Assembly: GCF_009936045.1 (NCBI RefSeq)
Contig: NZ_QWEQ01000011.1
Coordinates: 62,001 to 126,000, forward strand
Origin: Emergencia sp. 1XD21-10
Lineage (GTDB): Bacteria > Bacillota > Clostridia > Peptostreptococcales > Anaerovoracaceae
Reading direction: 5' to 3'
DNA: 64,000 nucleotides
The position numbers and the translations under genes were made by a program. Of the stretch, positions 31,131 through 46,647 are shown one piece after another. The stretch's first letter is position 1. Each line of letters opens with the position of its first letter. The notes beneath the pieces were generated by a model. It was not told the DNA's origin. It saw only the letters and a program-made list of their open reading frames with translations, and searched no databases.

Positions 31131-31143
31131 AGCCTCCTGTTTC

Positions 31144-32424
31144 TTAGCTCAGCAGAGAAGCGTCTTTTTTAAGGGCTTTACAAAGAACATAGTACAGTAA
31201 TCCGGATAAAGCGATGCTCTGTACCAGAACCAGTCCGTCTGTTACGAAAATGTTCATCACAAATCCTGCTAACCAGGAAATAATTCCATACCATACAAAG
31301 CCTTCGACCGGCTCCCATTTTGAAGCAGTACCTTTTCTCAGCAGCCAGTAGTCTGACAACATTACGCCGCCCATCGGAGCAAACGCAGCACCCAGCCATG
31401 TAATGAATCCCTCAAACTGGTTCATAATTCCAAGAACTGCTAAAATAGTTCCGATTGCACCGGCAATCAGCGTAACCATAGCTCTCTTTTCATCTTTCAG
31501 TTTCAAAATATTTACAAGGTTGATACCTGCAAGGTAAGCATTGCTTGTATTTGTAGTCCATGCCGCTAAAATCAGTACAACCATACCTAAAATCGGAAGA
31601 CCTACATCGCATAAAACCTGACTGACATCATACTGACCCACAGCCTTAGCCATCAGAATTCCGATTACCAGCATGAGAATTCCCGCAGGAAGTACGCCAA
31701 ATACGGTTGATTTCAGTGTATCTCCACGGTTTTTCTGATAACGGGAGAAGTCTGCAACTGTCATAGTCTGCATACTCATAAATCCTGTCGTCAATGTAAT
31801 TCCTTGTACTAAAGTCATCGTCGTTTCTGTCTGCGCATTGAGATTTGCAGTACCGTTATTGCGCAGCGCCAAATAACAGCCTACTACACAAACAATCAAC
31901 AGTGCCGGTACAGCCAGTGTGTTGATTTTTCCAATGGCGTTAATGCCGTATACTGCTGTAACCAGCATGATTGTTCCCCAGATTAAAATGGATACAACCT
32001 CCGGAACGTGAATTCCAAAAGAGTTTGCCATCAGATTTGTAAATGCACTGCCGCAAACTGCGGTATTAACGCCAAACCATCCGAGCATTGAAATGGTAAA
32101 GAAGAGGCTGTTTAAATATCTTGAGCCCGCTTTACCATAGCTGGACTGTAGTATCACACATGCCGGTACGCTGAGGTCGCTTCCCTCCATACCTCCCAAG
32201 CAAGTAAAAACAATAACTAAAGCATATCCGATGCAGCCTGCCAAAAGAGCCTGTGTCAGCGGCATTGCAGAAGCAAGTAATCCTCCAATCAGCATGCTCG
32301 GAACGCTAATCATAACGCCGGCATGTAAAAAAGCCATTTCAATCCAGCCCTTTTTCTCTTCCGGTGCAACTTGAGTTAGTGTGGTGGTTTCAACGCCACT
32401 ACGTTTCTTTTCGTTTTCGTTCAT
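31144..32424 (-). CDS. NCS1 family permease (cytosine permease-like)
   Basis: 426 residues, about twelve membrane helices. Signature stretches GVMISVPSMLIGGLLASAM, LGGMEGSDLSVPACVILQSS and ILAAWTTNTSNAYLAGINLV match CodB-type nucleobase:cation symporters. It probably imports a purine or pyrimidine-like compound; substrate not determined. It lies between a PepV-type peptidase and a divergent M29/NicX-like gene; a PucR regulator further down suggests control by a nitrogen compound (inference). Confidence 0.85.
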   Translation of the reverse strand: MNENEKKRSGVETTTLTQVAPEEKKGWIEMAFLHAGVMISVPSMLIGGLLASAMPLTQALLAGCIGYALVIVFTCLGGMEGSDLSVPACVILQSSYGKAGSRYLNSLFFTISMLGWFGVNTAVCGSAFTNLMANSFGIHVPEVVSILIWGTIMLVTAVYGINAIGKINTLAVPALLIVCVVGCYLALRNNGTANLNAQTETTMTLVQGITLTTGFMSMQTMTVADFSRYQKNRGDTLKSTVFGVLPAGILMLVIGILMAKAVGQYDVSQVLCDVGLPILGMVVLILAAWTTNTSNAYLAGINLVNILKLKDEKRAMVTLIAGAIGTILAVLGIMNQFEGFITWLGAAFAPMGGVMLSDYWLLRKGTASKWEPVEGFVWYGIISWLAGFVMNIFVTDGLVLVQSIALSGLLYYVLCKALKKDASLLS

Positions 32425-32635
32425 AACTCATCCTCTTTTCTCGATAACAAATATACTTTAATGAATACCTTCCGCAATTCCGCCCCGCCCCTTGGCGACT
32501 GATTAGATTTCAAAGAATGCACCTTTTAGCAGCGAAATGCGTGCACCTGTTACGGTGCTTTCATTTTATATAATATCTGTCTTTTCCGCATTAAAATATT
32601 TTGAATGAAAACTTAAAAATATTCAAATATTCTCA

Positions 32636-32664
32636 ATGACAATTTTTCCTCTGTCCACTATACT
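32636..32664 (+). promoter_or_regulatory. Promoter of the M29/NicX-like gene
   Basis: ATGACA (32636-32641), 17 bp, TATACT (32659-32664). A direct repeat AAGAATGCAC occurs at 32513-32522 and again at 32673-32682, the second right at the expected transcription start, so these may be operator sites of the divergent pair, possibly for PucR. Confidence 0.5.
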
Positions 32665-32715
32665 TTTCCTCGAAGAATGCACTAAAACACTCACTGTAAA
32701 CAAGGAGGTTATAAA

Positions 32716-33747
32716 ATGTACGATTACGAATTACAAAAAGCTGCGGACACTTTAATTGGCGATCTTTTTAAGGTAAAGCCGGGCGAAACTGTTGTTATCA
32801 CTTGCGATTCCCTTTCATGTATGAATGTGGTAAACGCTGTTATGTCCAGCGCTCACGCTGCAGGAGCTCTTCCTATGATGATTAAGTTTCCTGCACCGGA
32901 CGGCATTGGACAGGCCGCAGACCCAAAACTGCCAATTGAGCCGTTAACTGCCGCCGTATCCAACTGCGACGTATGGATTGAATTCAACCAGAAATGGCTG
33001 CTCTATTCTACCCCATACCTGCGTGCAATTGAAGCAAACAAAAAAATGCGCTACATGTGCTTGGTAGAATATACCGAAGATGTTTTGATCCGTACTTTAA
33101 AAGATCTTAACAGCGAAAAGCTGGCAGCATTTATGAATAAGGTTGCTGATTTAAACAGAGCTGCAAAGGTGACTCGCATGACGACCCCTGCAGGGACTGA
33201 CGTTACCTTTGAAACCAATCCGGAACACACAATTTTAGTAGATGCAGGTCTTGCTTCAAAGAGCGGTATCTACATGATGGCAGGTCAGCTCAACGTAGTA
33301 CCTAAGTTTGGTTCTGTAAACGGAACCATCGTCTTCGACGGCACCGTTACTCCTCCTTTTGGAAGAAATCCTGATGTTCCTATCAGATTAACTGTAAAGA
33401 ACAGCGAAATCGTAAAAGTTGAAGGCGGCGCAGACGCAAAAGCATACGAAAAATGGTTAAAGAGCTTTGACGATCCGGGCATGCTGAAGATGGCTCATGT
33501 CGCATACGGCTTCAATCCTGGCGCGCAGCTTTCAGGTAACGTTGTTGAAGACGAAAGAGTTTGGGGCGTTACGGAGTGGGGAATCGGTTATGTAAGCCCG
33601 ATTATTGCTCCACCTGATGGTCAGCAGGCGATTTCTCATACTGACGGTATTTGTATCGATACTTCCGTATGGATTGACGGCGTTCAGATTATGGATAAGG
33701 GTAAAATGGTTGACCCTGAGCTGGAAGCAATGTATCCACACAACTAA
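32716..33747 (+). CDS. M29-aminopeptidase/NicX-like metalloprotein
   Basis: 343 residues after AAGGAGGTTATAAA. The C-terminal half has the metal-site pattern of the leucyl aminopeptidase M29 / 2,5-dihydroxypyridine 5,6-dioxygenase (NicX) fold: MAHVAYGFNPGAQLSGNV, then AISHTDGICIDTSVWIDG (H-x-D). Early parts are VKPGETVVITCD and HAAGALPMM. The protein could be an Fe2+ ring-cleavage dioxygenase in nicotinate-type degradation or a peptidase; an anaerobe makes oxygen-dependent ring cleavage unlikely, so a hydrolase is favoured. Divergent to the NCS1 permease and convergent with PucR. Confidence 0.7.
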   Translation: MYDYELQKAADTLIGDLFKVKPGETVVITCDSLSCMNVVNAVMSSAHAAGALPMMIKFPAPDGIGQAADPKLPIEPLTAAVSNCDVWIEFNQKWLLYSTPYLRAIEANKKMRYMCLVEYTEDVLIRTLKDLNSEKLAAFMNKVADLNRAAKVTRMTTPAGTDVTFETNPEHTILVDAGLASKSGIYMMAGQLNVVPKFGSVNGTIVFDGTVTPPFGRNPDVPIRLTVKNSEIVKVEGGADAKAYEKWLKSFDDPGMLKMAHVAYGFNPGAQLSGNVVEDERVWGVTEWGIGYVSPIIAPPDGQQAISHTDGICIDTSVWIDGVQIMDKGKMVDPELEAMYPHN

Positions 33748-33790
33748 GAAACCCATACCTTGCATAGTATCCTTTTGTATGATACTTCTG

Positions 33791-33828
33791 CCAAAAGGGC
33801 TTCGGATAATCCTCCGAAGCCCTTTTGG
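33791..33828. terminator. Bidirectional terminator between the M29-like gene and PucR
   Basis: CCAAAAGGGCTTCGGA (33791-33806) pairs perfectly with TCCGAAGCCCTTTTGG (33813-33828), a 16-bp stem with a 6-nt loop serving both converging genes. Confidence 0.85.
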
Positions 33829-33838
33829 GATAAAGCTA

Positions 33839-34972
33839 TTATAACATTCGATCTATCATCGTAAGCATGGTAATACAGGTATGAAACTGGACAATATCAT
33901 CTTCAAATCCTAAAATCTGGCGCAATTTGTTAATACGATACCGAATTGTTGCTTCACTCTGCCCCATAAGATTCGCCGTCTCACGGTAAGAGCCTTTGCA
34001 TTGTACAAACATTTTGCATGTATTAAACAAGGTCGAGTCATTTTCACTTCGATAGATAGAAATCAAAGATTTCAGGCTGTCATAGTAACTGTATAATTCA
34101 CTGCTATCCTTCAACTTCATAATCAACGTCAAAATGGATTTGTTGTCATAGACAATTCTCTTTTCCTGGAGATAATAGGCGGTATCCAGGGCAAGAAGTC
34201 CCTCATCGAGGCAAAGATTCACTTCCTTCTTGGGGTGTACTGCACTGACCCCTGCCGTATAATTGGAAAAATACTGTTCCAAATAGTTACAAAAAATTGT
34301 TTGGATTTGATTAAGCTCCTCTTCACTGTCATGACTGATTAAAAAATAATGCAGATTATCGTGGAAAATATAGACGTCCTTCTGCCTTTTTAAAAAATAC
34401 GCCATCAAATCATTCTCCATCATAGGTGAATGTAGATTTCCGCGAACAATAACTATTTGCAACAGTTTTTTAAATTTAGGATTAATACTCTCTAACACCC
34501 GTTTTTTCTCTGCATCGTTAAGCTTTCCTGTATGAATTTCATTTAATTTATTCCCATTAAAAATATGGTAATACTTCTGAATGATTATATTATTAATTGT
34601 CTCCATAATAGACGCATAAGAAACTGTCCAGCTCACCATAATCAATGGCAGCTTTCCTCTATTACACTGCTCTTTTATTTCTTCGGTAATCAGGTGCGCA
34701 TTCTCATCTGTGATAATCAGCGCACTGCATTGAAAATTAACCAAGACCTGAATAAATTTCGTAAACTCCTGCGGCTGTGTTGCAAATTGATCGAGACCGG
34801 AGATATACAAATCTCCCTTTTTCACAATACTTTTGTCAAAGATGCCGGATTTCACCGAACAGTCATAGACAGAGGTTCGATTGACTACATTATCAAGATA
34901 CTTTTTTCCTGCAAGAACCTTCGCATTTTCAAATAACGGCTGCTTTAAAATCAGTTCTATTGTGCACAACAT
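33839..34972 (-). CDS. PucR family transcriptional regulator
   Basis: 377 residues from ATG 34972 (MLCTIELILKQPLFENAKVL), which matches the usual PucR N-terminus and follows AGGAAGG; an ATG at 34999 lacks a ribosome site. The PucR sensor domain covers the first ~125 residues (AGKKYLDNVVNR, KKGDLYISGLD), and the C-terminal HTH_30 domain is clear: FVQCKGSYRETANLMGQSEA and IRYRINKLRQILG. Such regulators often activate purine, proline or amine catabolism. Likely target: the neighbouring permease/M29-like genes (inference). Confidence 0.85.
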   Translation of the reverse strand: MLCTIELILKQPLFENAKVLAGKKYLDNVVNRTSVYDCSVKSGIFDKSIVKKGDLYISGLDQFATQPQEFTKFIQVLVNFQCSALIITDENAHLITEEIKEQCNRGKLPLIMVSWTVSYASIMETINNIIIQKYYHIFNGNKLNEIHTGKLNDAEKKRVLESINPKFKKLLQIVIVRGNLHSPMMENDLMAYFLKRQKDVYIFHDNLHYFLISHDSEEELNQIQTIFCNYLEQYFSNYTAGVSAVHPKKEVNLCLDEGLLALDTAYYLQEKRIVYDNKSILTLIMKLKDSSELYSYYDSLKSLISIYRSENDSTLFNTCKMFVQCKGSYRETANLMGQSEATIRYRINKLRQILGFEDDIVQFHTCITMLTMIDRML

Positions 34973-35100
34973 AACCTTCCTGCCTACCTTTCTTTCCATT
35001 TTTCACAGTATACCACAGAAATCTCTGCGGTAGAAGTATCAAAAATTAACATAAGGGCTCCGCTCAATTCCTCAAATCATTGTAGCAGAACCCCCCTCTT

Positions 35101-35877
35101 TTACCATTTCCGAGAAGGAAACTCCGGTTTTCTCTTGTCATAAAATGCAGCAAGGCCTTCTTTTGCGTCTTCACTGGTGAAAGCTTTGTATCCAAGCAGT
35201 GCTTCCGTCTCAAAAGCCTGCTCCAGCGGGATTTCCCGCAGCTTCAGTACTGATTCTTTCGCAGTCTGCACTGCCGTCGTACTTAGAGTGCAAAATTTCT
35301 TTGCAATTTCCATTGCCTTATCCATCACGTCCTTCGGTGCAACAACATGGTTCAGCACCCCGTAGTCAAGAGCTGTTTTGGCGCTGATTTTCTCACCCAT
35401 CAAAATCAGTTCCATCGCTCTGATGTAAGGAATCTGTCTTGCCAATCTCGCCAGAGTTCCTCCTGCCGGTACAATGCCTAAAGAAACCTCCGGAAGAGCA
35501 AATGTGGCTTCGCTGGACGCTACTCGGATGTCTGACGCCAGCATAATTTCAAAGCCTCCGCCCATACAGTGTCCATTGACTGCACAAATTACAGGTTTAT
35601 ACATATCCACATGCTTGAGATGGGCTGGATCCCATTCGTCAATATAATGACCCTGTCCTAAATAAGGAATGGATTCTGTCAAATCCGCACCAACACAAAA
35701 GGCTTTCTCTCCTGCGCCGGTTAAAATACACGCCGCAACTTGATTATCTGCCTGCGCCTTTTTAAAGGCTTCTCCTAAATCCTCATACATCTGCAGGGTG
35801 AGAGAGTTCAATTTCTCCGGTCTGTTAAATTTTATAACGGCAATCCCGTCTTTCACTTCATAAGAGATATTTTTCAT
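35101..35877 (-). CDS. Enoyl-CoA hydratase/isomerase family protein
   Basis: 258 residues, typical crotonase length. Oxyanion-hole segments ACILTGAGEKAFCVGADL and AVNGHCMGGGFEIMLASDIR, and ATFALPEVSLGIVPAGGT with a catalytic Glu, are present. It overlaps the CaiB stop by one base (TAATG), so the two are translated together. In this cluster it could hydrate 3-methylglutaconyl-CoA to HMG-CoA or act on another branched acyl-CoA (inference). Last gene of the run. Confidence 0.88.
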   Translation of the reverse strand: MKNISYEVKDGIAVIKFNRPEKLNSLTLQMYEDLGEAFKKAQADNQVAACILTGAGEKAFCVGADLTESIPYLGQGHYIDEWDPAHLKHVDMYKPVICAVNGHCMGGGFEIMLASDIRVASSEATFALPEVSLGIVPAGGTLARLARQIPYIRAMELILMGEKISAKTALDYGVLNHVVAPKDVMDKAMEIAKKFCTLSTTAVQTAKESVLKLREIPLEQAFETEALLGYKAFTSEDAKEGLAAFYDKRKPEFPSRKW

Positions 35878-37073
35878 TACAGAACTCCTTTCTCACGCAA
35901 TCTCTCAATCTCCGATCCAGAAAGCCCAAGGAATTCTTTATAAACCTCCTGATTGTGCTGTCCGATTTCCGGTGCTTTTCCCGATGTATCGCACGGCGTT
36001 TTGCTCAGTTTAATCGGCGTTCCGAATAATTTCCCCTGCGCACTGCCGTATGTATAATCGATAAACATCTCTCTGGCATTGAGCTGCGGATCCTCCAGCA
36101 CCTGATCAATTGCATGAATTGCTGTAAGTGGTAACTTGTCGGCAAGGGCGTCCTGCAGCTCCTGACATGTATAATTAGAAAACCATTCATTTATTTTAGG
36201 CAAAACTCTTCTCTCGTACACCTCTTCGTCAAAACGTTTCGGCATGGTGTCAATTTCAGGGTCGGATAAAAGCTCCGGCTCGCCGAAGAATTCGCAGGTA
36301 GTTTTCCAAAATCTGTCTGTATAGCCACCGAAGAAAACTTCCCCGTCCTTGGCTTTAAATTTTCCGTAAGGTCTGCAAAGGGGATGATCATTGCCGAGAG
36401 GCGTCTGCACCTTGCCTCCAACAGTATAATTGGACACTGCATTTTCCGTCAGCGCCAAAGAGGAGTCCAGCTGGGCTACATCGACAAGCTGCCCCTCTCC
36501 GGTTTTTTGGGCATGAATATACGCTGACAGTGTTCCAATGGCGCCGAAAAAGGTGGCTGCCAAATCGCCGATGATCGTTCCAATTCTAGTCGGTTCCCCT
36601 GGCATACCGTTCATAGACCAAAGACCGCTGAGAGCCTGACCGCTGTTATCATAAGCAGGCCATGAGGAGTACGGTCCCGTCTGTCCAAATCCTGAAATCG
36701 CAGTATATACAATTTTAGGGTTATATTTCTTTAAATCTTCATAGCCGACGCCCAGTTTATCCATCACGCCTGCTCGATAATTTTCAATGACAATATCTGC
36801 CTTTTCAACCAGCTCTCTAAAAAGCTCCTTCCCCTTCTCCTCTTTGAGATTTAAGGTAATGGCCTGCTTATTTCGATTATACTGTGCAAAAAAGGCGCTC
36901 TGTTTTTTCTCGCCGTCTACAAGATACGGCTCAAAGTCGCGGGTATAATCCGGGTCCTTCGGATTCTCGATTTTAATGACCCGTGCGCCTAAATCTGATA
37001 AAATCATAGTCGCATAAGGGCCTGCTACTACTCTTGTTAAATCCAGTACTGTTACACCTTCTAATGGTTTCAT
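35877..37073 (-). CDS. CaiB/BaiF family CoA-transferase
   Basis: 398 residues from ATG 37073 (MKPLEGVTVLDLTRVVAGPY) after GGAGGAAATAGGT; the longer open frame upstream lacks family homology. Family III CoA-transferase features: DLTRVVAGPYATMILSDLGA, IENPKDPDYTRDF, and the catalytic Asp region PAYDNSGQALSGL. It moves CoA between an acyl-CoA donor and a carboxylic acid. A human family member (SUGCT) uses glutarate and 3-hydroxy-3-methylglutarate as acceptors, so with the HMG-CoA enzymes in this cluster HMG is a plausible acid; alternatives are open. Confidence 0.9.
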   Translation of the reverse strand: MKPLEGVTVLDLTRVVAGPYATMILSDLGARVIKIENPKDPDYTRDFEPYLVDGEKKQSAFFAQYNRNKQAITLNLKEEKGKELFRELVEKADIVIENYRAGVMDKLGVGYEDLKKYNPKIVYTAISGFGQTGPYSSWPAYDNSGQALSGLWSMNGMPGEPTRIGTIIGDLAATFFGAIGTLSAYIHAQKTGEGQLVDVAQLDSSLALTENAVSNYTVGGKVQTPLGNDHPLCRPYGKFKAKDGEVFFGGYTDRFWKTTCEFFGEPELLSDPEIDTMPKRFDEEVYERRVLPKINEWFSNYTCQELQDALADKLPLTAIHAIDQVLEDPQLNAREMFIDYTYGSAQGKLFGTPIKLSKTPCDTSGKAPEIGQHNQEVYKEFLGLSGSEIERLREKGVL

Positions 37074-37190
37074 ACCTATTTCCTCCATGAATTCGTACCG
37101 AAAAACCGTAATTTCTTCGATTTTCCGGTACCTACCCAAAATAAGATTCATTACTTTACAGAATATATTTTTTGTTTAACAACATACTTT

Positions 37191-38590
37191 CTATTTCTTC
37201 GCTCTCTTTTCTTCCATGTCGGCAAGATAGTATTTGCCCGGTGTATGGAAGAATTCATCCTGCAGCTTAACAACCTGCGGCACCAGCCAGATAACAGCAA
37301 CCATATTCGGTATGATAAACAACGCATTAAAGAAGTCATTGAGCTGATATACCACGGTCAATTCCATACCGAAGGTTACAATAATCATCGTTGCAATTGC
37401 AATAAATCTCCATGCAACACCGGCTTTTGGTGTTTTAAACAGGAACTCTGCCTGTCTTTCATCGTAGAAAATAACCACAGTAATCGTCGTAATTACAAAC
37501 AGTAACACGCAAATCGCTACAAAGTAATCTCCAGCCACACCAAAGACAGTGTGAAATGCCGCCTGTCCTAAAGCGCCGGCATCAATACCGGGCATCTTCC
37601 AAACGCCTGTAGTCAGCACTGCAAGCGCTGTAGCCGTACAAACTAAAATCGTATCTACGCCTACTTCAAAAACACCCCACATTGCCTGTCTAATCGGGTG
37701 ATCAACATCTGCAGCCGCATGAGCTGACGGAGCTGAACCAAATCCCGCTTCATTGGAGTACACACCCCTTGCAGAACCCCAACGCAGCGCCAGCGCTACA
37801 GTGGATCCTGCAAAGCCGCCAACGGCCGCATGCGGTGCAAAAGCATACACAAAGATGCTTCCCAGTGATGGAAGAATTTCACCAGCATTAAGTACCAGAA
37901 TGATAATTACACCTAACAGGTACAACGCTGCCATAATCGGCACTGCTTTTTCCATAACCTTGGCAATTCTTTTAATTCCGCCGAAAACAATAACTGCAAC
38001 AATTACTGCAACGATAATACCGAATACTGTTCCGTTAATACCAAAAACAGAAACCTGCGCACTGGCAGACAAAGTCTGAGACGCTACAGACGGAATACCT
38101 GCAATCATGGTGAAAAATGCACAGAAAATAGCGATTGCATGTCCTGCCTTTTTCCCTCCGCATAACTCCTTTACATAGCTGAAAGCGCCGCCGACCCATT
38201 CACCTTTTTCGTTTTTAGTCCTGTACTTCATACAAAGCGCAATTTCAACATACTTTGTACAGCCGCCTACAATCGCAATAATCCACATCCAGAAAATCGC
38301 TCCGGGACCGCCTAAAGCGATGGCTACCGGCACACCTACAATGTTGGAGGCTCCGATGGAGGAAGCCAAAGCAAAGCAGAGCATGCTGCTGCAAAAGAAG
38401 AAATTTTATCATCTTCCCCTTTGGCAAACATCTTTCCAAAAGTCTGTGAACAGATGTAACGGAGTTTTGTAATCTGAGGAAAACCTAAGCGAAAACTCAT
38501 ATACAGTCCACCGCCAACGATTAAAATCAAAATGGGGAGCCCCCAAAACCAGTTCGCACATGCGACACAAAAATTTATAATACCTTGCAT
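37191..38590 (-). pseudogene. Na+/alanine symporter (AGCS family), frameshifted
   Basis: From ATG 38590 the frame encodes FWGLPILILIVGGGLYMSFR and KISSFAAACSAL, then drops out of phase; the next frame continues FALASSIGASNIVGVPVAIA, LGGPGAIFWMWI, SNEAGFGSAPSAHAAA and to the end at 37191 (about 465 residues in total). The cause is a tandem duplication of CAAAG at 38367-38376: removing one copy restores the frame. AGCS proteins cotransport alanine or glycine with Na+. Either inactive, subject to slippage between 5-bp units, or a sequence error. Confidence 0.85.
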
Positions 38591-38651
38591 AGTAAATCCT
38601 TTCTATGTATCAAAAAATATATCCTGTAAATTTAAATCTCGATCCTTATAT

Positions 38652-40256
38652 CTATTGTTTTTTCATTTTATCATATACACAATCACCGTCTAAATAGGTT
38701 TTTTCTACAACGATTTCATCGATGCGTTGTGGATCTATTGTAAAAATATCCTCAGATATAACTGCAAAGCTGGCACGATAGCCGGCGGTCAGCTGTCCCA
38801 GATTTCTAAAACCTGCAATCTCCGCACCCTCTTTGGTATACATGCGAAGAGCAGTTTCTACATCTATGCAGTTTTCTCTGCCGCAGTCCGTTCCGTCATA
38901 GGCAGTTCTTGTTACTGCACATTTTATGTTTGGAAACGGATTTGACGGTTCTGCCCAGGATGTGGCCGGTGCGTCTGTGGACAAGGCTACTTTAACCCCA
39001 CGGGCAAGCAAATGCTTAATCGGATAAATTTCCTTTATCCACTCCATTCCCAGATTGTTCCGATAGCTTTCAATCTCCGCATACATGAAAATACTTTGGG
39101 TGGAAAATGCGATGTTTTCCCTCGCCGCCCTGTCGATGGCCTGCTCTGACGGATCAGTGATATGTTCCAGCCTTATAGACGGCTTATCTGAAAGCCACTG
39201 ACCCTCTCTGCATGTAATTTCAGTCATACGGTCGATGGCACGTTTTCCCATCGTGTGTACCGAAAGCTGGCAATGATTCTTCTTACAAAAGGCTATCGCA
39301 CTTTCTACTTCCTCATCGCTGCAGACTGAAATGCCGTACTCCGTATCGCTGCCCAAATAAGGTCTATCCATCCAGGCAGTCCTGCCGCCTACGCTTCCAT
39401 CACCGATCAATTTGATTCCGGCTTTGCGGATTTGCCGCTTTGGCTCTGCAATTTCCTCGCTCCATTTAAACTCAGGATTTTTACGAATTAAATCCCAAAT
39501 ATAATACATGGCTACATCTTGCTTAAAGCCTCTCTTTGCGGCTTCCTCATAGTACTCAAAATAGTCCACAGAGTCCAGATTTCCCATATCCGTCACAGCT
39601 ACAATGCCCTGTGAAAGCAGTAGTTCTCCCAAAGAAACAAGACTTTCGATGACCTGCTCTTTGGATTTTTCCGGCAAAATCTCCCCAACCAGATGTCTTG
39701 CATTTTCTTTTAAAATGCCTGTAGGCTCGCCGTTTTCATCTCTGTCGATTTCCCCGCCCGGCGGGTCAGGTGTATCCTTTGTAATTCCGGCAAGTTCCAG
39801 CGCTTTACTGTTCACACTGCGAATATGGGAGCAGGAACGAAGCAGCTCCACAGGATATTCTGTCGTCGCTTTGTCCAAATCCCATCTGTTTGGGCTGCGG
39901 TGCTCTGCAAATTTTTCTTCGTCATAGCCCCAGCCCTGAATCCATTGATTTGGTTTGCTATCGCTGCTTTTCTCTCTGATAACCTCCGTAAGTTCTTCTA
40001 TAGAATGTACCTTTGGAGGCAGACAGGAAATTTTAGCGGCACAGTCCGCCAAAATGACGGGGTGCATATGGCTGTCCACTAGGCCCGGTATCACCCGCTT
40101 CCCGCCTAAATCCGTAACGGGATATCCTGTTTCCGGCAAGTCCTCCTGTTTTCCAATCCATGAAATAACGCCGTCCTCTACCACAAAGCATTCTTCAAAA
40201 GGCTCCTTTGTATCTGCGGTAAATACCTTACCGTTTATGAAAACTTGATTACTCAC
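38652..40256 (-). CDS. YtcJ-like amidohydrolase
   Basis: 534 residues. Amidohydrolase_3 features: KRVIPGLVDSHMHPVILADC (HxH), GWGYDEEKF, IGDGSVGGRTAWM (ligand region), SVHTMGKRAID, RLEHITDPS, and ALSTDAPATSWAEPSNPF (Asp). Such proteins hydrolyse amide-like bonds of small molecules; no substrate is known for most. It lies 18 bp after HMG-CoA reductase and 61 bp before the symporter, apparently one transcript. Confidence 0.88.
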   Translation of the reverse strand: MSNQVFINGKVFTADTKEPFEECFVVEDGVISWIGKQEDLPETGYPVTDLGGKRVIPGLVDSHMHPVILADCAAKISCLPPKVHSIEELTEVIREKSSDSKPNQWIQGWGYDEEKFAEHRSPNRWDLDKATTEYPVELLRSCSHIRSVNSKALELAGITKDTPDPPGGEIDRDENGEPTGILKENARHLVGEILPEKSKEQVIESLVSLGELLLSQGIVAVTDMGNLDSVDYFEYYEEAAKRGFKQDVAMYYIWDLIRKNPEFKWSEEIAEPKRQIRKAGIKLIGDGSVGGRTAWMDRPYLGSDTEYGISVCSDEEVESAIAFCKKNHCQLSVHTMGKRAIDRMTEITCREGQWLSDKPSIRLEHITDPSEQAIDRAARENIAFSTQSIFMYAEIESYRNNLGMEWIKEIYPIKHLLARGVKVALSTDAPATSWAEPSNPFPNIKCAVTRTAYDGTDCGRENCIDVETALRMYTKEGAEIAGFRNLGQLTAGYRASFAVISEDIFTIDPQRIDEIVVEKTYLDGDCVYDKMKKQ

Positions 40257-40274
40257 TTTGTTCGCTCCTTTTTA

Positions 40275-41538
40275 TTATGCCTTTTGATAGCGGTCAAATA
40301 ATTCCTGTGCGTACTCTAATCTGACGTTTTTCTCCGTCACCATTTTCGCTACGATCTTCTCTAAGATCTCGCCCTTTGCGCCTACTGTATTTGCCAGATT
40401 TCTAGCGTGCAGAGACATATGGCCTCTCTGAATACCTTCTGTTGCCAGAGCCTTCATCGCAGCCAGATTATTTGCAAGACCTGCTGAGGCGATAATCTGT
40501 CCCAGCTCTGCCGCTGTCTTAACGCCCAAGATTTTTACAGCTGTCTGTGCCGCAGGGTGAATCTTTGTCGCTCCGCCTACAAGACCTACTGCCATTGGCA
40601 TTTCAATACAACCAACCAAATCACCGTTTTCATTTTTCTCCCATGTGGTCAAAGAAGTGTATTTTCCATTTCTTGCTGCATAGGAATGGGCACCTGATTC
40701 GATGGCTCTAGTATCGTTTCCTGTTGCCATTACTACCGGAATAATGCCGTTCATGATGCCTTTGTTGTGGGTAGCCGCTCTATATGGGTCTGCCGCGGCA
40801 AAGGCATATGCGTTGATAATCTTATCTGCAACTTCCTCACCGCCGATAGCTTCTTTCTTCCATACTGCTCTGGATCTGACGATTCTGTGGTCAGCCAGGT
40901 TGGATAAAATTCGCAGCTCTGCAACGCCGCCTGTTAATTTTTCAATATATGGAGATACCGCTTCAGCCATGGTATTTACGGCATTTGCACCCATTGCATC
41001 TAAAGTGTCAACTAAAAGGTGTACAATGACCATCGGTCCTACGATTGAGTCGATGACTCTAACCTCTACATCCTTTGCGCCGCCGAACTTAACTAAAACC
41101 GGATCCTTTTCATTACAGATTTTGATAATCTCTTCCTTGTTTTCCAAAATAGCGCTCTTTGCAGCAAAAGGGCGTCGCCATGTCAAGGATTTGAATCTGC
41201 GCAATCATAATATTTCCAGAAGTGCTTGCAACAAAGCCGCCTGCGCCTCTTGCCATTTTTGCGGCATTACTGCAGGCTGCAATAACAGAGGGCTCTTCTG
41301 TAACCATAGGAATCACCACATCCTTACCGTTGATGACAAAGTTGATTCCAACGCCCATAGGCAAAGCAAATTTTCCGATTACATTTTCCACCATATGATC
41401 TGCTTTATCCATATCTAAAGCGTCTGCATTCTTAAGAATCTCCTGCTCCTTGGCGGAAAGCGCTGCGAACTCCGCAACTTCTTTCATTCTTTCTTCTACG
41501 GATAATTTGAAAAATCCTGAATAACTGCTTGTTTTCAT
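40275..41538 (-). pseudogene. HMG-CoA reductase, class II, frameshifted
   Basis: About 420 residues when the frame is repaired. The first part (from ATG 41538) has DHMVENVIGKFALPMGVGIN and MVTEEPSVIAACSNAA; after MATPF a one-base expansion of the A-run at 41166-41169 shifts it, and the next frame resumes AAKSAILENKEEI. Then come the catalytic Lys (ATHNKGIMNG), the Asp (ATGNDTRAIE), the nucleotide motif DAMGANAVN and the catalytic His (GHMSLHARNLA). Class II enzymes, as in Pseudomonas mevalonii, work in mevalonate breakdown. Located 4 bp after HMG-CoA lyase. Broken as sequenced. Confidence 0.88.
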
Positions 41539-41542
41539 TTCT

Positions 41543-42523
41543 TTACTCTCCTAACTCTTTCATTGAGGCGGTAAAGGAGTCCAGGGTTCTTCCCAGAATT
41601 CTTTCCACCATCTGCTCAATTTGGTAACACTTCTTTTCATCAATCCCTGTTTCAATACCCATTGTATTTAACATAGATACGAAGTCGCATGTTTCCACAA
41701 GGCCTGTACGCTTTGTATCAAAGTAATATGAGCCAATCCCTTTCACCGGCACACGGTCTACAATATTTGCTACCTGACCGCCGATTCCGCCCAGGGTGCA
41801 GTCAAAGGTTTCAACGCCTGCTTCCATCGCCGCATAGTAGGACGCCATTCCCATTCCTCTCACATCGTGCACATGGAAAGAATGCATGGACGTATCCGGA
41901 TAGGCTTTCATCACATGTGAAAAGTAGTTATAAACCCTCTCCGGATCTGCAATGCCGTCAGGATCGGAGTGTTCAATCTCGTCAAATCCGATATCAAAGG
42001 CTCTGTCTACAAATTCATATGCCCTTTCTATAGGGACTTCTCCCTGAATCGGACAGCCGAAAATGGTTCCGATATTCGCAAAGACTTTTTTAATTCCCAG
42101 GGAATGGAGAAATTTTACGTTCTTCTCCGCCTCAAGGAAAAGCTCTTCATGGGTTCTGTTCATATTCTTTCTGGCATAAGCCTCGCTGGTCGCCAGCTGT
42201 CCGCAGAGAACTCTATCTATCTGAACACCTTCTTCAAGAGCCTGCGCAACTCGCTCGCAAGCCTTTGTATTCAGCGCAAGAACCGTGTACTCCACATCCT
42301 CACGGTGAGGAAGACATTTCAGAACTTCTAAAATGTCTTTGAATTGGGGCACGTACTTAATATGACTGAACGTGCCGATTTCAATCCGCTTAAAGCCGGC
42401 ATTCATCAGTCTTTCCGCAATCCAAAGCTTCGCCTCAGTTGGCACAAACAGCTCTTCATGCTGAAATCCGTCTCGAAGAGTTACATCAATTACATCAATC
42501 TGTTTTGGTAAATTCTTCTTCAC
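41543..42523 (-). CDS. HMG-CoA lyase family protein
   Basis: 326 residues: a DRE-TIM metallolyase of the HMG-CoA lyase/ homocitrate synthase superfamily. Motifs: IDVIDVTLRDGFQHEE (DVTLRDG), IEIGTFSHIKY, ANIGTIFGCPIQG, MHSFHVHDVRGMGM (H-x-H metal site) and FDCTLGGIGG. Splitting HMG-CoA into acetyl-CoA and acetoacetate is the best guess given the neighbouring class II HMG-CoA reductase. Directly downstream of a -24/-12 promoter. Confidence 0.88.
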   Translation of the reverse strand: MKKNLPKQIDVIDVTLRDGFQHEELFVPTEAKLWIAERLMNAGFKRIEIGTFSHIKYVPQFKDILEVLKCLPHREDVEYTVLALNTKACERVAQALEEGVQIDRVLCGQLATSEAYARKNMNRTHEELFLEAEKNVKFLHSLGIKKVFANIGTIFGCPIQGEVPIERAYEFVDRAFDIGFDEIEHSDPDGIADPERVYNYFSHVMKAYPDTSMHSFHVHDVRGMGMASYYAAMEAGVETFDCTLGGIGGQVANIVDRVPVKGIGSYYFDTKRTGLVETCDFVSMLNTMGIETGIDEKKCYQIEQMVERILGRTLDSFTASMKELGE

Positions 42524-42561
42524 ACTTTCATCTCCTTCAATTCCTTTTTACGATTACCTAT

Positions 42562-42577
42562 CGCAAAGGGTATGCCA
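42562..42577 (-). promoter_or_regulatory. Sigma-54 (-24/-12) promoter of the catabolic operon
   Basis: On the minus strand TGGCAT-ACCC-TTTGCG (42577 to 42562) has GG and GC exactly 12 bp apart, close to the consensus TGGCACG-N4-TTGCW, ending about 39 bp upstream of the HMG-CoA lyase start. The gene immediately upstream encodes a sigma-54 activator. Confidence 0.75.
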
Positions 42578-42606
42578 ACCGAGAATTCTAAAAAAAGCAC
42601 AACAAA

Positions 42607-42629
42607 AAACGCTTGAATTTCAAGCGTTT
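42607..42629 (-). terminator. Palindrome: terminator of the activator gene or activator binding site
   Basis: AAACGCTTGAA (42607-42617) pairs with TTCAAGCGTTT (42619-42629); on the minus strand TTTTTTG follows. It sits 30 bp upstream of the -24 element, so it could also be an activator site. Confidence 0.6.
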
Positions 42630-42680
42630 CATTGATTTTACATATTTATTGCAGCTTGGTTCCATCCTGGAATATCTGTA

Positions 42681-42726
42681 AAAAAATATTTATTTATAAA
42701 AATATTTTTATAAATAAATATTTTTT
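42681..42726. repeat. 46-bp perfect palindrome made only of A and T
   Basis: AAAAAATATTTATTTATAAAA is mirrored base for base to 42726 (46 bp, no mismatch). It covers the last codons of the sigma-54 activator (YLFIKIFL, stop at 42694-42696) and about 14 bp past it. Confidence 0.9.
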
Positions 42727-44132
42727 ATGGGATATGCCCAGCTTTTTTAAGCGATACTGCAGCTTTTGCGGCGAGATATCAAGGCGTGCTGCCACATCAC
42801 TCAGTTTTTCTTCCTGCTCCATTATCATCTCTATAATTTCTTTCTCATAGGCTTTAAGCATATCCTCTAAGCTGTGCTGACTGCCCGGCTCTATTTTTTG
42901 AATTCCCAGCGGTGCAGGTTTATGCTCCGGTATTTTTACCTTCTGTTCATCACTGATTGTTTTTACAAGCTGCATTCTTCGAAACAAAGGATTTACACTT
43001 TCCAAACTAATTTGCGCCTTCTTCTCAAGATTAAATGCGCTTTCGATGATGTTTTTCAGTTCCCGCACATTACCCGGCCAATCCCATTGAACAAAAACCT
43101 GCTCAGTTAAAGAACTGATACCCTTAATGCTCCGATTCATCTTTTCATTATAATAAGCGATAAAATGCTCCGCCAAAAGAAGAATATCCTCTGGTCGCTG
43201 TCGCAAAGGCGGAATTTCAATCTGGAGAACGCAAATGCGATAATACAAGTCCTCACGAATCCGCTTTTCTCTCAAAAGTTTTTCCAAAGGCTCGTTGGTA
43301 GCACAAATCAGCCTCACATTAAACGGAATATCTTTGCTGCCCCCGATTCGTCTCACTTTTTGTTCTTCAATTGCTTTCAAAAGTTTTGCCTGCATCCCTA
43401 AGTCGAGGGAATTGATTTCATCAAGAAACAGTGTGCCGCCGCTTGCCATTTCAAAAAGCCCTTCTCTGGACTCTGCCCCGGTAAAGCCGCCCTTTTCCGT
43501 TCCGAAAAACATACTTTCCAAAAGATGTGGGGGAATCGCTGCACAGTTTTGTGCAATGAAATTCTTGGCTCTTCTCTTTCCCTCTGAATGGATTGATTCA
43601 GCAATCATCTCTTTCCCGGTGCCTGTTTCCCCGTAAATCATCACCGGAGAATCGCTGTTGCTGACTTCTAAAATCAACGCCTTGATTTCTTCCATTTTTT
43701 TATTCTGCGTAATAATATCGTCTGTTACATACAGCTTCTGCTTAATATACTCCGAAGTCTTTAAATTCTGCAAATAGAGAAGCTGCGCCACATTAGCAGC
43801 GCCTACAATCAAGCCATTTTCCACAATCGGATAGGTACTGCCTCGAAGTACCATCAATGCTTCCACGTTAAGACCTGAGGCTCGTCTATGGACATTTTTC
43901 CCGTCTTAAGAGTCTGCAATACAGTGCTTGTCTCTTCAGATAATTCTTCATAAAAATCCGTCAGGTGTTCGCCTATAATCGACCTCTCCCACTCCGGAAT
44001 GACAGAATTAGACATTCTTCCAAACCATGTGCTGTATTCCACAATCCCATTCTTATTGACAATTAGAATACCATCATATTTGGTGTTATCAATCTGCATA
44101 ATTTGATTCAGTTTGTTAATAAGTCCGCCCAT
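42694..44132 (-). pseudogene. PAS-domain sigma-54-dependent activator, frameshifted
   Basis: From ATG 44132 the frame holds a PAS domain (YDGILIVNKNGIVEYSTW, TDFYEELSEETSTVL). One base is missing near 43866-43872; the next frame continues NVEALMVLRGSTYPI, then the AAA+ domain: GETGTGKEMIAESIH (Walker A), GGFTGAESREGLFEM in place of the usual GAFTGA loop, GTLFLDEINSL (Walker B), RLICATNEPLE, and RQRPEDILLLAEHF. The C-terminus is a Fis-type HTH (SDVAARLDISPQKLQYRLKK). About 479 residues if repaired. It should act from upstream sites on the sigma-54 promoter beside it. Confidence 0.85.
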
Positions 44133-44228
44133 GAAGAAATCTTCTTTTTCAGCGATTTACGTACCTAACGTTGATATTAGTATACCATGAGTAGAAGCCT
44201 ATTTCCAATAAGGAATTTTGCTGGATAC

Positions 44229-44425
44229 TTATTCTTCCATCTCTAAATTCAGGCGCTGTAAAATATCTCTAATAATGCCTTCGTCCTGAATAAAATTGAT
44301 ATCAAAACATTTTGCTGTAGCTCCACGTTGCTAATTTCCTCAAATAAATAAGCATTGCTTGTAATAAATCGCCGCATTTCTACAAAGCACGTATAATACC
44401 AATGCTTGCCAGCATCGCCTCACAA
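44229..44425 (-). pseudogene. Degenerate ORF6N/RhuM-like remnant
   Basis: One minus-strand frame reads KHWYYTCFVEMRRFITSNAY then LFEEISNVELQQ, and another gives FDINFIQDEGIIRDILQRLN ending with a stop at 44229. The pattern V-x-MRRF-x-NA-x-F is like ORF6N/RhuM-type accessory proteins. No start and no single open frame. The rest of the 44133-44678 gap is AT-rich, with only the promoter at 44610-44638. Confidence 0.3.
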
Positions 44426-44609
44426 CGATTTTGCCTTTTAAATTACAATCATACGATTAGCACATCTTGACGAAGTTTCCAGTAGTTTTGGTTATATTTT
44501 CTCAAAAAAATTTTACATTTTTTTATAAAAACCAATTTGACCCATTATTTTTCAACGATAACTATTTCATATTTCCATAAAATTTCTAACCGTTTTTATC
44601 TTCTCCTAC

Positions 44610-44638
44610 TGGACAAACCGCCCTGTCTATGGTAAAAT
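44610..44638 (+). promoter_or_regulatory. Promoter of the FnIII-domain gene
   Basis: TGGACA (44610-44615), 17 bp, TAAAAT (44633-44638), 41 bp before the ATG. Confidence 0.65.
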
Positions 44639-44678
44639 TTAGAAAATCATGTAAAATTAAAGAAAGGACAAGATTGCA

Positions 44679-45359
44679 ATGAAAAAGAAAGTATTTCGTT
44701 TAATTGGACTGCTTTTAATCGTTATGATGGCAACCACATCACTGTCCTTTGCCGCCACGTCCAAGCAGACTCCAATCACCAAGCCTACCGTCACCGTAAA
44801 GAACATAGACGACAATTACCTGAAAGTTTCATGGAGCAAACGCACCAAGGCAGTCAAATACAATGTTTACCGCGCCACGTCCAAGAGCGGCACTTATAAA
44901 AAAATCGCTACTACTACCAGAACCTACTACAACGACAAAACCGTTGATAATAACAAGACCTACTACTATAAGGTTAAAGCACTCGGTAAGTCTTCCAAAT
45001 ATAACAGCAAAATGAGCATCCCTAAGTCCGGCAAAATCAGTTTCGCTGGAGAAATCCGGGTATCGAAAGAATACTTTAACCTGACGCCGGAAAATCCGTC
45101 CTTTAAGATTTATGTCAAAGGAATTAATACTGAGGACGATTTAACCTTAGCTTATGACGATTACTATATCGAACTAGAAATTGAGGATGCCAATGACACA
45201 GGCTGGTATCCGATCACCGTAACCTGTCTGCTTGCGCCAGAGGATTATTATTCCGGAGAGGAAACAGAAATCGAACTCTACTTTGAAAAGCACGAACGTC
45301 TTTATAAGAAAATCGTTACTGTTTACTTCTTCGAAAATGAAGGCGAACTCGCCGCATAA
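44679..45359 (+). CDS. Secreted protein with an FnIII-like domain
   Basis: 226 residues after AAGAAAGGACAAG. A signal peptide (MKKKVFRLIGLLLIVMMATT, cleavage near SFAAT) is followed by a fibronectin-III-like domain (about residues 36-110: NYLKVSWSKRTKAVKYNVYR, then TYYYKVKALGKSS). The C-terminal 115 residues are acidic, probably a second beta domain that I do not recognise. No anchor is visible, so it may be released or bind the wall non-covalently. Exported FnIII modules often mediate adhesion. Confidence 0.78.
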   Translation: MKKKVFRLIGLLLIVMMATTSLSFAATSKQTPITKPTVTVKNIDDNYLKVSWSKRTKAVKYNVYRATSKSGTYKKIATTTRTYYNDKTVDNNKTYYYKVKALGKSSKYNSKMSIPKSGKISFAGEIRVSKEYFNLTPENPSFKIYVKGINTEDDLTLAYDDYYIELEIEDANDTGWYPITVTCLLAPEDYYSGEETEIELYFEKHERLYKKIVTVYFFENEGELAA

Positions 45360-45379
45360 ACATATGAATGACAACATTA

Positions 45380-45412
45380 AAAGGGACCGGCTCAAGATGA
45401 GTCAGTCCCTTT
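45380..45412 (+). terminator. Terminator between the FnIII and Fic genes
   Basis: AAAGGGAC (45380-45387) pairs with GTCCCTTT (45405-45412) with an extra CTC/GAG inner stem. It can serve both converging genes. Confidence 0.65.
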
Positions 45413-45420
45413 CTATTACT

Positions 45421-46647
45421 TTAGCTGCGCAGAAATTCTAAAAGTGACGCAGGTTCTAATTTATAAACCAGCTTGCGTCCCTCTTTTTCGATAGCGATAG
45501 GTACACCAGAGTTGATCAAATCCATAACATATGAGTGCGCAGCAGATACCCCAACCCGCAAAAGTCCGGCAAGCTGGCTTTTACCTAAAGGCTCGTTGGA
45601 AAAGATTGCATTCTGTATCAAAAACCATAAAACATCAATGGTTCTTCTGCGCTCGTTTTCATTACATCCGTCATATTTTATTTTCAGCGCTTTCCTATAT
45701 GCATTCAGCATATCTCTTCCCTCTTCCAGCTTCTCTATGAGCGAATCAATTGACCTTTCTACAACTTCAGAAAAATAGATGAGAAAATAGGTCAGTTCTC
45801 CTCTGTTCAGCCCATTGTTACAAATATCAAAAGCTTTATAATACTCGCTTTTGTTCTCCTTAATAGTGTAGGCAAGGCGAAGAGCAGTCAGCGTGTTGAA
45901 CTCTTTTTTCAAAAGATAACTGCTCAGGAATCTGCTCAATCTTCCGTTTCCGTCATAAAATGGATGCACGTAGCCAATCATGTAATGCAAAATAGCAACC
46001 TTATGAAGGTTCAGAATGTCCTGCCGCTTAAAAAGCGCCAGCGTCTGATCTATATATTCGATGATTTTCTGTTCTGGATAGACGCCTTTGTGTTTTACCT
46101 GCTGCGTACCAGAGATAACTTCCGCCAAATCTTTTCTGAAAATCTCTCCGTCCGGCCAGTTTGGCTTCTCAATCTCAGCAAGAACAATTTCGTCATACAG
46201 ATTCCGAACATCCTGACTCGTCTCCAGGGCAATTTCATAAGGTGCACTCCCATTCTCCAGGAACATGTATTTTTCAACGAGTCCGGCGAACCGTCCTTTC
46301 TTGGGTGCATGCTCATCTGTCTCCATGACGCTGATAATTTCTTTGCGCGTACTTCTTATTCCTTCGATATCGTTAGTAATGATAATTTCATCGATCAGGC
46401 AGTTTCTCTCGTAAAACTTATATGCGACCCCAGGAAGCACAGCGCAGAGCTTTTCAAGCTGCGCAAATTTTTTATAAAGGCGTGCCATCTGCAACGCAAA
46501 TTCCGGGTGATTCACATAAAAGGCCTCATAGTCACCAATCTGAAAACCCAGAGAAATCGTATCCGCTCGATTTTTTCGTGCAGCAAATTCAGTCTCAAAA
46601 ATATCTTTATTTTTATAATAAATCTTACTCAGAAGTTCATAACCCAT
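45421..46647 (-). CDS. Fic family protein (AMPylase/phosphotransferase)
   Basis: 408 residues from ATG 46647 (MGYELLSKIYYKNKDIFETE). The Fic core motif HPFYDGNGRLSR is complete. Near residue 105 the string TNDIEG matches the (S/T)xxxE(G/N) inhibitory motif of class II Fic proteins, so activity is probably self-restrained. The C-terminus has a winged-helix-like segment (SQLAGLLRVGVSAAHSYV), suggesting DNA binding. Fic proteins transfer AMP to target hydroxyls; the target here is unknown. No Doc/antitoxin partner is adjacent. Confidence 0.88.
   Translation of the reverse strand: MGYELLSKIYYKNKDIFETEFAARKNRADTISLGFQIGDYEAFYVNHPEFALQMARLYKKFAQLEKLCAVLPGVAYKFYERNCLIDEIIITNDIEGIRSTRKEIISVMETDEHAPKKGRFAGLVEKYMFLENGSAPYEIALETSQDVRNLYDEIVLAEIEKPNWPDGEIFRKDLAEVISGTQQVKHKGVYPEQKIIEYIDQTLALFKRQDILNLHKVAILHYMIGYVHPFYDGNGRLSRFLSSYLLKKEFNTLTALRLAYTIKENKSEYYKAFDICNNGLNRGELTYFLIYFSEVVERSIDSLIEKLEEGRDMLNAYRKALKIKYDGCNENERRRTIDVLWFLIQNAIFSNEPLGKSQLAGLLRVGVSAAHSYVMDLINSGVPIAIEKEGRKLVYKLEPASLLEFLRS

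Follow-up and report, generated by a model that had tools for sequence, protein, structure and literature searches.

The stretch analysed here, referred to as the window, is a 64,000-nucleotide segment of the genome of Emergencia sp. 1XD21-10 (positions 62001-126000 of contig 104, in an assembly of 3.39 Mb and 116 contigs with 98.7% completeness and 3.72% contamination). Emergencia-like bacteria are gut anaerobes. The minus strand of the window carries, at 35101-44132, seven genes encoding a sigma-54-dependent activator, a protein resembling 3-hydroxy-3-methylglutaryl (HMG)-CoA lyase (HMGL), a class II HMG-CoA reductase (HMGR), an amidohydrolase, an AGCS sodium:amino-acid symporter, a CaiB CoA-transferase and an enoyl-CoA hydratase. 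Open reading frames (ORFs) and Pfam and NCBIfam matches confirm this gene set, its single strand and its ends, as they had been given in an initial annotation based on the sequence alone, which proposed a cluster for the breakdown of mevalonate or HMG.

The activator gene is the first of the seven and is split over two frames. Its N-terminal piece (43854-44132), at which the frame is broken, has no Pfam match of its own and is 85% identical over 92 codons to an intact paralogue described below, and the second piece (42694-43866; 79% identity to the paralogue) carries the AAA+ and Fis-type helix-turn-helix (HTH) domains (PF00158, 1.5e-63, and PF02954). Between 42609 and 42628, the minus strand has an inverted repeat and then a T run, read from the sequence and largely kept in the paralogue; together they are likely the terminator of this gene. 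A pattern scan located the -24/-12 promoter of the structural genes (TGGCATACCCTTTGC; 42563-42577, minus strand) 54 bases upstream of the start codon of the lyase gene (41543-42523; PF00682, 1e-38), whose product falls, according to motif table, tree and AlphaFold model, into a clade without the catalytic Cys. HMGR is again in two pieces, an N-terminal one with the frameshift near its end (41113-41538; from the ORFs and the comparison with the paralogue) and a C-terminal one (40275-41204) that scores 327 bits with the 'degradative' model TIGR00532 (cut-off 260). The genes further downstream encode the amidohydrolase (Amidohydro_3; 38652-40256; PF07969, 2.6e-93; 72% identity to the paralogue), the symporter, with an N-terminal piece ending in a frameshift (38336-38590; 85% identity over 73 residues to a gene of genome G010) and a main piece (37191-38384; TIGR00835 above cut-off; 95% to the paralogue), the CaiB/BaiF (family III) CoA-transferase (35877-37073, with the start set by the paralogue and an open frame extending to 37151; PF02515, 1e-118) and the hydratase (35101-35877; PF00378, 5e-65).

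The activator, HMGR and symporter genes, three out of seven, are therefore each split over two frames. An intact version, for which the initial annotation had suggested a search, was found within the same assembly: contig 45 (locus L016) carries all seven genes complete and in the same order, with proteins 72-95% identical to those of the window. The net length differences between the copies at the three breaks are 1, 4 and 5 bases, which do not show the pattern of plain homopolymer errors, and this explanation was dropped. The ratio of non-synonymous to synonymous substitution rates (dN/dS) between the copies is 0.05 for CaiB, 0.11 for the amidohydrolase and 0.02 for the symporter downstream of its break, the synonymous rate being saturated for the hydratase, lyase, HMGR and activator. 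Such strong constraint implies that any loss of the window copy is recent, and comparison of the two sequences suggests that the window copy is probably a recently disabled duplicate of the contig-45 copy. Against this, the low dN/dS also beyond the symporter break (0.02) means that the frameshifts could be assembly errors, and it is possible that the second copy comes from a co-binned foreign contig, given the 3.72% contamination.

We assembled 22 loci with an HMGR in catabolic-looking surroundings: the window, L016, L017, L018, L019/L022 (two contigs of G010 counted as one locus), L023, L024, L025, L026, L029, L031, L033, L034, L036, L051, L052, L082, L099, L114, L115, L116 and L117. The first 14 were found with the lyase as query (at least 59% identity) and those from L051 onward with HMGR as query, L082 coming from a lyase profile. 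Their common core consists of HMGR, a C-C lyase (21 loci), a sigma-54 activator (19) and an importer, and since this core recurs in many genomes we take the gene arrangement to go beyond chance. HMGR adjoins the lyase in all 14 loci found by the lyase query, and no HMGR lies beside the more distant lyase homologues (at most 43% identity) that the same scan found at L035 and L037. The lyase slot is filled by a Cys-less HMGL in 16 loci, by a Ser variant of HMGL in one (L099), by AtuA in three and by a beta-keto acid cleavage enzyme (BKACE) in one (L117), with none recognised in L116. The most frequent importer is TctA-like, in 12 loci, called by Pfam in L033 and L051, by BLAST in L082, L099, L115 and L116, and by eye in L017, L025, L026, L031, L036 and L052; AGCS symporters occur in four loci, dipeptide-type ABC importers in two and GntP in one, while L024 has a Mem_trans gene further on, L117 an SSF symporter on the opposite strand, and L029 is cut by a contig end. 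Around this core, additional modules vary: amidohydrolase, CaiB and hydratase are together in three full loci from two genera (the window, L016 and L023) and in L019 up to the contig end in the symporter, the large and small subunits of aconitase X (AcnX) in L018 and L114, and an SGL-type lactonase in L024. The cluster is sparsely distributed: of 257 family genomes 11 have an HMGR above cut-off, as do 3 of 391 at class level and 7 of 398 at phylum level, three of the last having biosynthetic-looking neighbours. One of these readings, for L100 (G940), comes from the neighbours by eye, HMGR itself not being listed among the picked frames; L101 (G1142; HMGR 45% identical), with ambiguous neighbours, was excluded from both the catabolic and the biosynthetic counts.

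The sigma-54 control proposed by the initial annotation is well supported by this conservation. The window has both a -24/-12 promoter and an AAA+ activator with an HTH, the latter encoded by the frameshifted gene, and within the 15 kb covered by the scan (31001-46000) no site scores better than its promoter; at the equivalent position the paralogue carries a full-consensus version. When 23 first genes were examined with a strict pattern, 21 had a site on the correct strand at most 350 bases upstream; for 20 of these the distance is 37-90 bases, and for the other it is 132. Outside these positions, the 412 kb of sequence contain seven sites, from which ~0.003 would be expected per unit. These units are partly non-independent (L033/L036 and L016/L022 are close relatives), and for L114 the AtuA start was placed downstream of the first start codon of its frame, which overlaps the promoter. 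Within the same 350 bases, L082 and L116 have no strict-pattern site, L082 having a weaker one 319 bases upstream. The activator stands beside the core in 19 of the 22 loci; L116 has none, and L029 and L031 end at contig ends.

Among solved structures, the HMGR of the intact paralogue scores 469-475 bits with 6p7k, 1qax and 6dio (471 for 1qax, which we take to be the Pseudomonas mevalonii HMGR) and 422 with 9v7y, and at most 323 bits with the other class II entries; the nearest entries are presumably catabolic enzymes and the group at 323 bits presumably biosynthetic. The intact copy also reaches 456 bits with TIGR00532. In further support, the HMGRs of L102 and L103, which by eye have neighbours resembling mevalonate-pathway genes, share 44% and 43% identity with the paralogue, and the 15-16 kb inspected show no sigma-54 activator for either. 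In the ten cluster genomes, DXS is above cut-off in nine, the exception being G611, and mevalonate kinase, the only later step of the mevalonate pathway searched for, is above cut-off in none. Because of this distribution we rejected a role in isoprenoid biosynthesis, and the cluster HMGR is very probably catabolic, with mevalonate converted to HMG-CoA and then to C2 and C4 units. Taken together, the importers, the inducible-type promoters, the HMGR match and the DXS/kinase pattern point to the direction of mevalonate oxidation. Lyases of the HMG-CoA lyase kind are reversible in principle, and HMGR might instead work reductively, so that mevalonate formed out of acetyl-CoA plus acetoacetate would serve as an electron sink or be secreted; we consider this very unlikely, given the importer-type genes and sigma-54 promoters at nearly every locus, the lack of a mevalonate kinase above cut-off in the ten genomes and the best HMGR scores being with the 1qax group. 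A potential to produce mevalonolactone, as reported for the gut bacterium Ruminococcus torques in the available passages of PMC12214271, would speak for it.

We therefore favour, as a likely reading of these sequences, a sigma-54-controlled mevalonate-catabolic operon of anaerobic Firmicutes, of which the window would hold a copy that is probably a recently disabled duplicate. These bacteria would take up mevalonate, or a compound releasing it; HMGR, with free CoA, would oxidise mevalonate to HMG-CoA, yielding two NADH, and HMG-CoA would be cut into C2 and C4 units from which acetate and butyrate would be made. Since the formulae of acetic and butyric acid add up to that of mevalonic acid (C6H12O4), such a fermentation would be redox-neutral. 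Of the breakdown of mevalonate or HMG proposed initially, the mevalonate part is well supported by the conserved HMGR and lyase core, the promoters and the DXS/kinase pattern, whereas free HMG is a less likely main substrate, since a pathway starting from it could do without HMGR. In such a pathway for free HMG and/or 3-methylglutaconate, CaiB would activate the diacid, the hydratase would convert 3-methylglutaconyl-CoA to HMG-CoA for the lyase to cut, and HMGR would only drain or supply mevalonate. The best solved relative of CaiB is indeed SUGCT, the succinate-HMG CoA-transferase, which activates HMG in this way (9br6, 223 bits, versus 102 bits for carnitine CaiB), the hydratase family fits, and the importers are often TctA-like. 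However, CaiB and hydratase accompany lyase and HMGR in only three full loci, whereas all 14 close lyase homologues have HMGR as a neighbour, and HMGR is the one CoA-activating gene seen among those read in the two AcnX operons; we regard this pathway as quite unlikely.

The lyase differs from the known enzyme at its active site. It scores 194 bits with the NCBIfam HMG-CoA lyase model NF004283, below the cut-off of 246. The residues of HMG-CoA lyase given in the available passages of PMC6941031 are Arg41, Asp42, Glu72, His233, His235, the catalytic Cys266 of the GGCP motif and the metal ligand Asn275. The first five are kept in the window lyase (R17, D18, E48, H217 and H219) and in all 32 rows of our alignment except L031, whose start is cut off. 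At the position of Cys266, by contrast, Gln is present in the window and in 14 of the 15 rows from HMGR operons, with Ser in L099; Cys is kept in 6 of the 32 rows, none of them from an HMGR operon. The Asn275 position is Leu in the window lyase, and exactly those 20 of the 32 rows that lost Asn275 carry an Asn three positions beyond the Gln, from which we infer that this Asn may take over the metal-ligand role; in the window lyase the two residues are Gln250 and Asn253. In the tree these 20 rows make up a single branch (support 94/89, not starred), so that one switch is enough. The trait of lying in an HMGR operon, on the other hand, changes three times, as forced by well-supported branches, one change resting on the long row L099; the trait may have been gained three times, or gained once and lost twice. 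The tree leaves out L019 and L022, which are partial, and L036, a near-copy of L033. A further change at Tyr167 was discarded, the alignment column being unreliable (Ala or Ser also occurs there in Cys-bearing rows). In the AlphaFold model (pLDDT 88), the window lyase is predicted to have the TIM-barrel fold of HMGL: its best match is the Bacillus subtilis HMG-CoA lyase 1ydo (Z 39.4, 1.9 Å over 297 residues), the next fold is homocitrate synthase (Z 29.9), and Foldseek ranks 1-14 are HMG-CoA lyases. The rows from VIA and Foldseek comprise only barrels of this superfamily, in which the absence of other folds means nothing.

With neither Cys266 nor Asn275 and a score below the model cut-off, a canonical HMG-CoA lyase (EC 4.1.3.4) was rejected as a family claim, and we describe the protein as one that would work like it; the acetyl-CoA and acetoacetate that the initial annotation expected from an ordinary HMG-CoA lyase are accordingly not secured, the more so as AtuA replaces the lyase in three loci. 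Cys-less and Cys-bearing lyases are adjacent in clusters with carboxyltransferase and enoyl-CoA hydratase genes in four other Firmicutes (L081, 7244-9198; L083, 7616-9698; L084, 7750-9796; L089, 6681-8686), where the paired enzymes might assemble with each other or differ in the substrate they cut. The presence of such relatives next to carboxyltransferase, hydratase and Cys-bearing lyase genes would agree with a leucine-derived acid, isovalerate or 3-methylcrotonate, as the substrate of the pathway. We give this hardly any weight: inspection of the HMGR operons by eye, with some genes unannotated, revealed neither a carboxylase nor an acyl-CoA dehydrogenase, and we know of no place for HMGR in leucine breakdown.

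In L052, L114 and L115, AtuA and a small ferredoxin-like partner stand in place of HMGL. The swap occurs within one genus, G174 having AtuA (L115) and G083 the HMGL form (L026), and also amid otherwise the same genes: the AtuA operon of G188 (L114) and the operon of Emergencia timonensis share HMGR, both AcnX subunits, a solute-binding protein, two permeases, two ATPases and a DUF917 protein, AcnX preceding HMGR in one and following it in the other. The DUF917 (S-Me-THD) gene lies 3' of the dipeptide-type ABC importer in both (L018, 16724-17839; L114, 518-1729). In the available passages of PMC4847356, AtuA is annotated as an acetate-releasing lyase, 'characterized or tentatively identified', and that system resembles ours in combining PF07287 (AtuA family) with PF23544 (AtuA ferredoxin-like domain) and in its predicted substrate, a 3-hydroxy-3-alkylglutaryl-CoA; it differs in that here the two domains are on separate genes beside HMGR and replace an HMGL-like gene. 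If our reading holds, the exchange provides a genetic argument for AtuA as a 3-hydroxy-3-alkylglutaryl-CoA lyase. Among nine of the ten cluster genomes (all but G010), 3-hydroxyacyl-CoA dehydrogenase domains are present in nine and a two-gene CoA-transferase pair in eight; the pair was not found in G611, the only AtuA genome tested, as expected, in this single case, if acetoacetyl-CoA forms directly.

The modules around the core hint at the precursor. AcnX of E. timonensis is closest to the archaeal mevalonate-5-phosphate dehydratase (245 bits; the proline type scores 232). It keeps the residues that serve the cluster, carboxylate and C3-OH (Cys110, Glu129, Ser130 and Ser131 by script; Cys283, Cys342, Lys361 and Tyr365 by eye), while the phosphate contacts Gly48, Val49, Ser50, Asn53 and Asn79 are replaced by Leu, His, Ala, Ser and Asp, identically in G188; the first three are main-chain contacts and thus weaker evidence than the side-chain changes at Asn53 and Asn79. 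Compared with the archaeal type II enzyme (available passages of PMC8184944), AcnX here likewise has large and small subunits and keeps the Fe-S cysteines and the residues for carboxylate and C3-OH, and differs in the phosphate side chains (Ser/Asp for Asn53/Asn79), in the Gly-Val-Ser loop (Leu-His-Ala) and in belonging to bacterial sigma-54 operons, the sister loci rather than the window. On the simplest reading, AcnX of the sister operons would hydrate anhydromevalonate to mevalonate, and HMGR would then need no separate CoA activation. By analogy with these operons, in which the 5-phosphate side chains are not kept, there are hints that CaiB and hydratase of the window hydrate anhydromevalonate. 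CaiB and CaiD act on crotonobetaine by CoA cycling. The window resembles that carnitine system in having a family III CoA-transferase next to an enoyl-CoA hydratase, which could hydrate an enoate by CoA cycling, and differs from it in that its CaiB is nearer to SUGCT. The solved relatives of the hydratase include the SidH mevalonyl-CoA hydratase (7oeq, 118 bits), which was not accepted as proof of anhydromevalonate, as it ranks 45th of 220 and 44 solved sequences score higher.

Fusarinines, which are fungal siderophores, contain an amide of anhydromevalonate, and amidohydrolase and amino-acid symporter would fit such an amide. The amide-linked precursor suggested initially is possible for the window variant: the AGCS symporter would import it, the amidohydrolase would free the acid, and CaiB and hydratase would turn anhydromevalonate into mevalonate by CoA cycling. 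A bolder proposal, unlikely as a whole, is that the Cys-less HMGLs on the one hand and AtuA plus partner on the other are unrelated acetate-releasing HMG-CoA lyases, yielding acetate and acetoacetyl-CoA, in operons that degrade anhydromevalonate, e.g. the fusarinine acyl group freed by the amidohydrolase and hydrated by CaiB and hydratase in one lineage and by a new, 5-phosphate-independent AcnX in another. Beside these modules, the intact copy has a second amidohydrolase (L016, 2096-3670; 27% identical to the first) 3' of the hydratase, where the window has a PucR-type regulator. This regulator belongs to the genes downstream of the window operon (31144-34999), together with an NCS1 permease and a gene matching M29 weakly and below cut-off, a relative of which (35% identity) is also near the HMGR cluster of L082.

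Several observations weigh against mevalonate catabolism as set out above. TIGR00532 is not specific to catabolism, since it is also passed by L102 (346 bits) and L103 (330 bits), in their biosynthetic-looking surroundings. Weak matches to the mevalonate kinase family occur in four of the ten cluster genomes (best 88 bits versus a cut-off of 163), and G611 has neither DXS nor mevalonate kinase above cut-off. Residues that are described as critical for HMG-CoA lyase are missing from the lyase here, and because Cys-less and Cys-bearing types adjoin in the four Firmicutes clusters, the former may perform a different cleavage, at odds with a simple HMG-CoA lyase. TctA-like proteins are a family of di- and tricarboxylate carriers, and this commonest importer would suit HMG better than mevalonate. 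L116 (7767-10894; G001, of the window's genus) has HMGR and TctB/TctA-like genes, no recognised lyase or activator in 19.5 kb and no -24/-12 site nearby, and in L117 (7698-9791; G139) HMGR (51% identical) adjoins BKACE and a sigma-54 activator. A second BKACE and the SSF symporter lie nearby in L117, possibly a further substrate or lyase variant.

Mevalonate is the product of the enzyme blocked by statins and a building block of cholesterol and terpenes. If mevalonate catabolism is correct, some gut anaerobes would ferment mevalonate or mevalonolactone, a clade of the HMG-CoA lyase family would have a rebuilt catalytic centre, and a new AcnX specificity is predicted. According to PMC12214271 (available passages), human faecal metabolomes include mevalonolactone. 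None of the top matches listed in literature searches for mevalonate breakdown, for mvaAB/mvaR and for Emergencia together with mevalonate describes the cluster; subscription journals were mostly outside their coverage.

The closest known system is the mevalonate catabolism of P. mevalonii, whose operon includes mvaA (HMGR) and mvaB (HMG-CoA lyase). The operons described here share with it an HMGR of the same class II sequence group beside a gene of the HMG-CoA lyase superfamily. They differ in that HMGR and a canonical lyase do not stand side by side, the lyase being without Cys266 and Asn275 or replaced by AtuA, and in that the core is accompanied, in anaerobic Firmicutes, by a sigma-54 activator, importers and extra hydratase and hydrolase modules.

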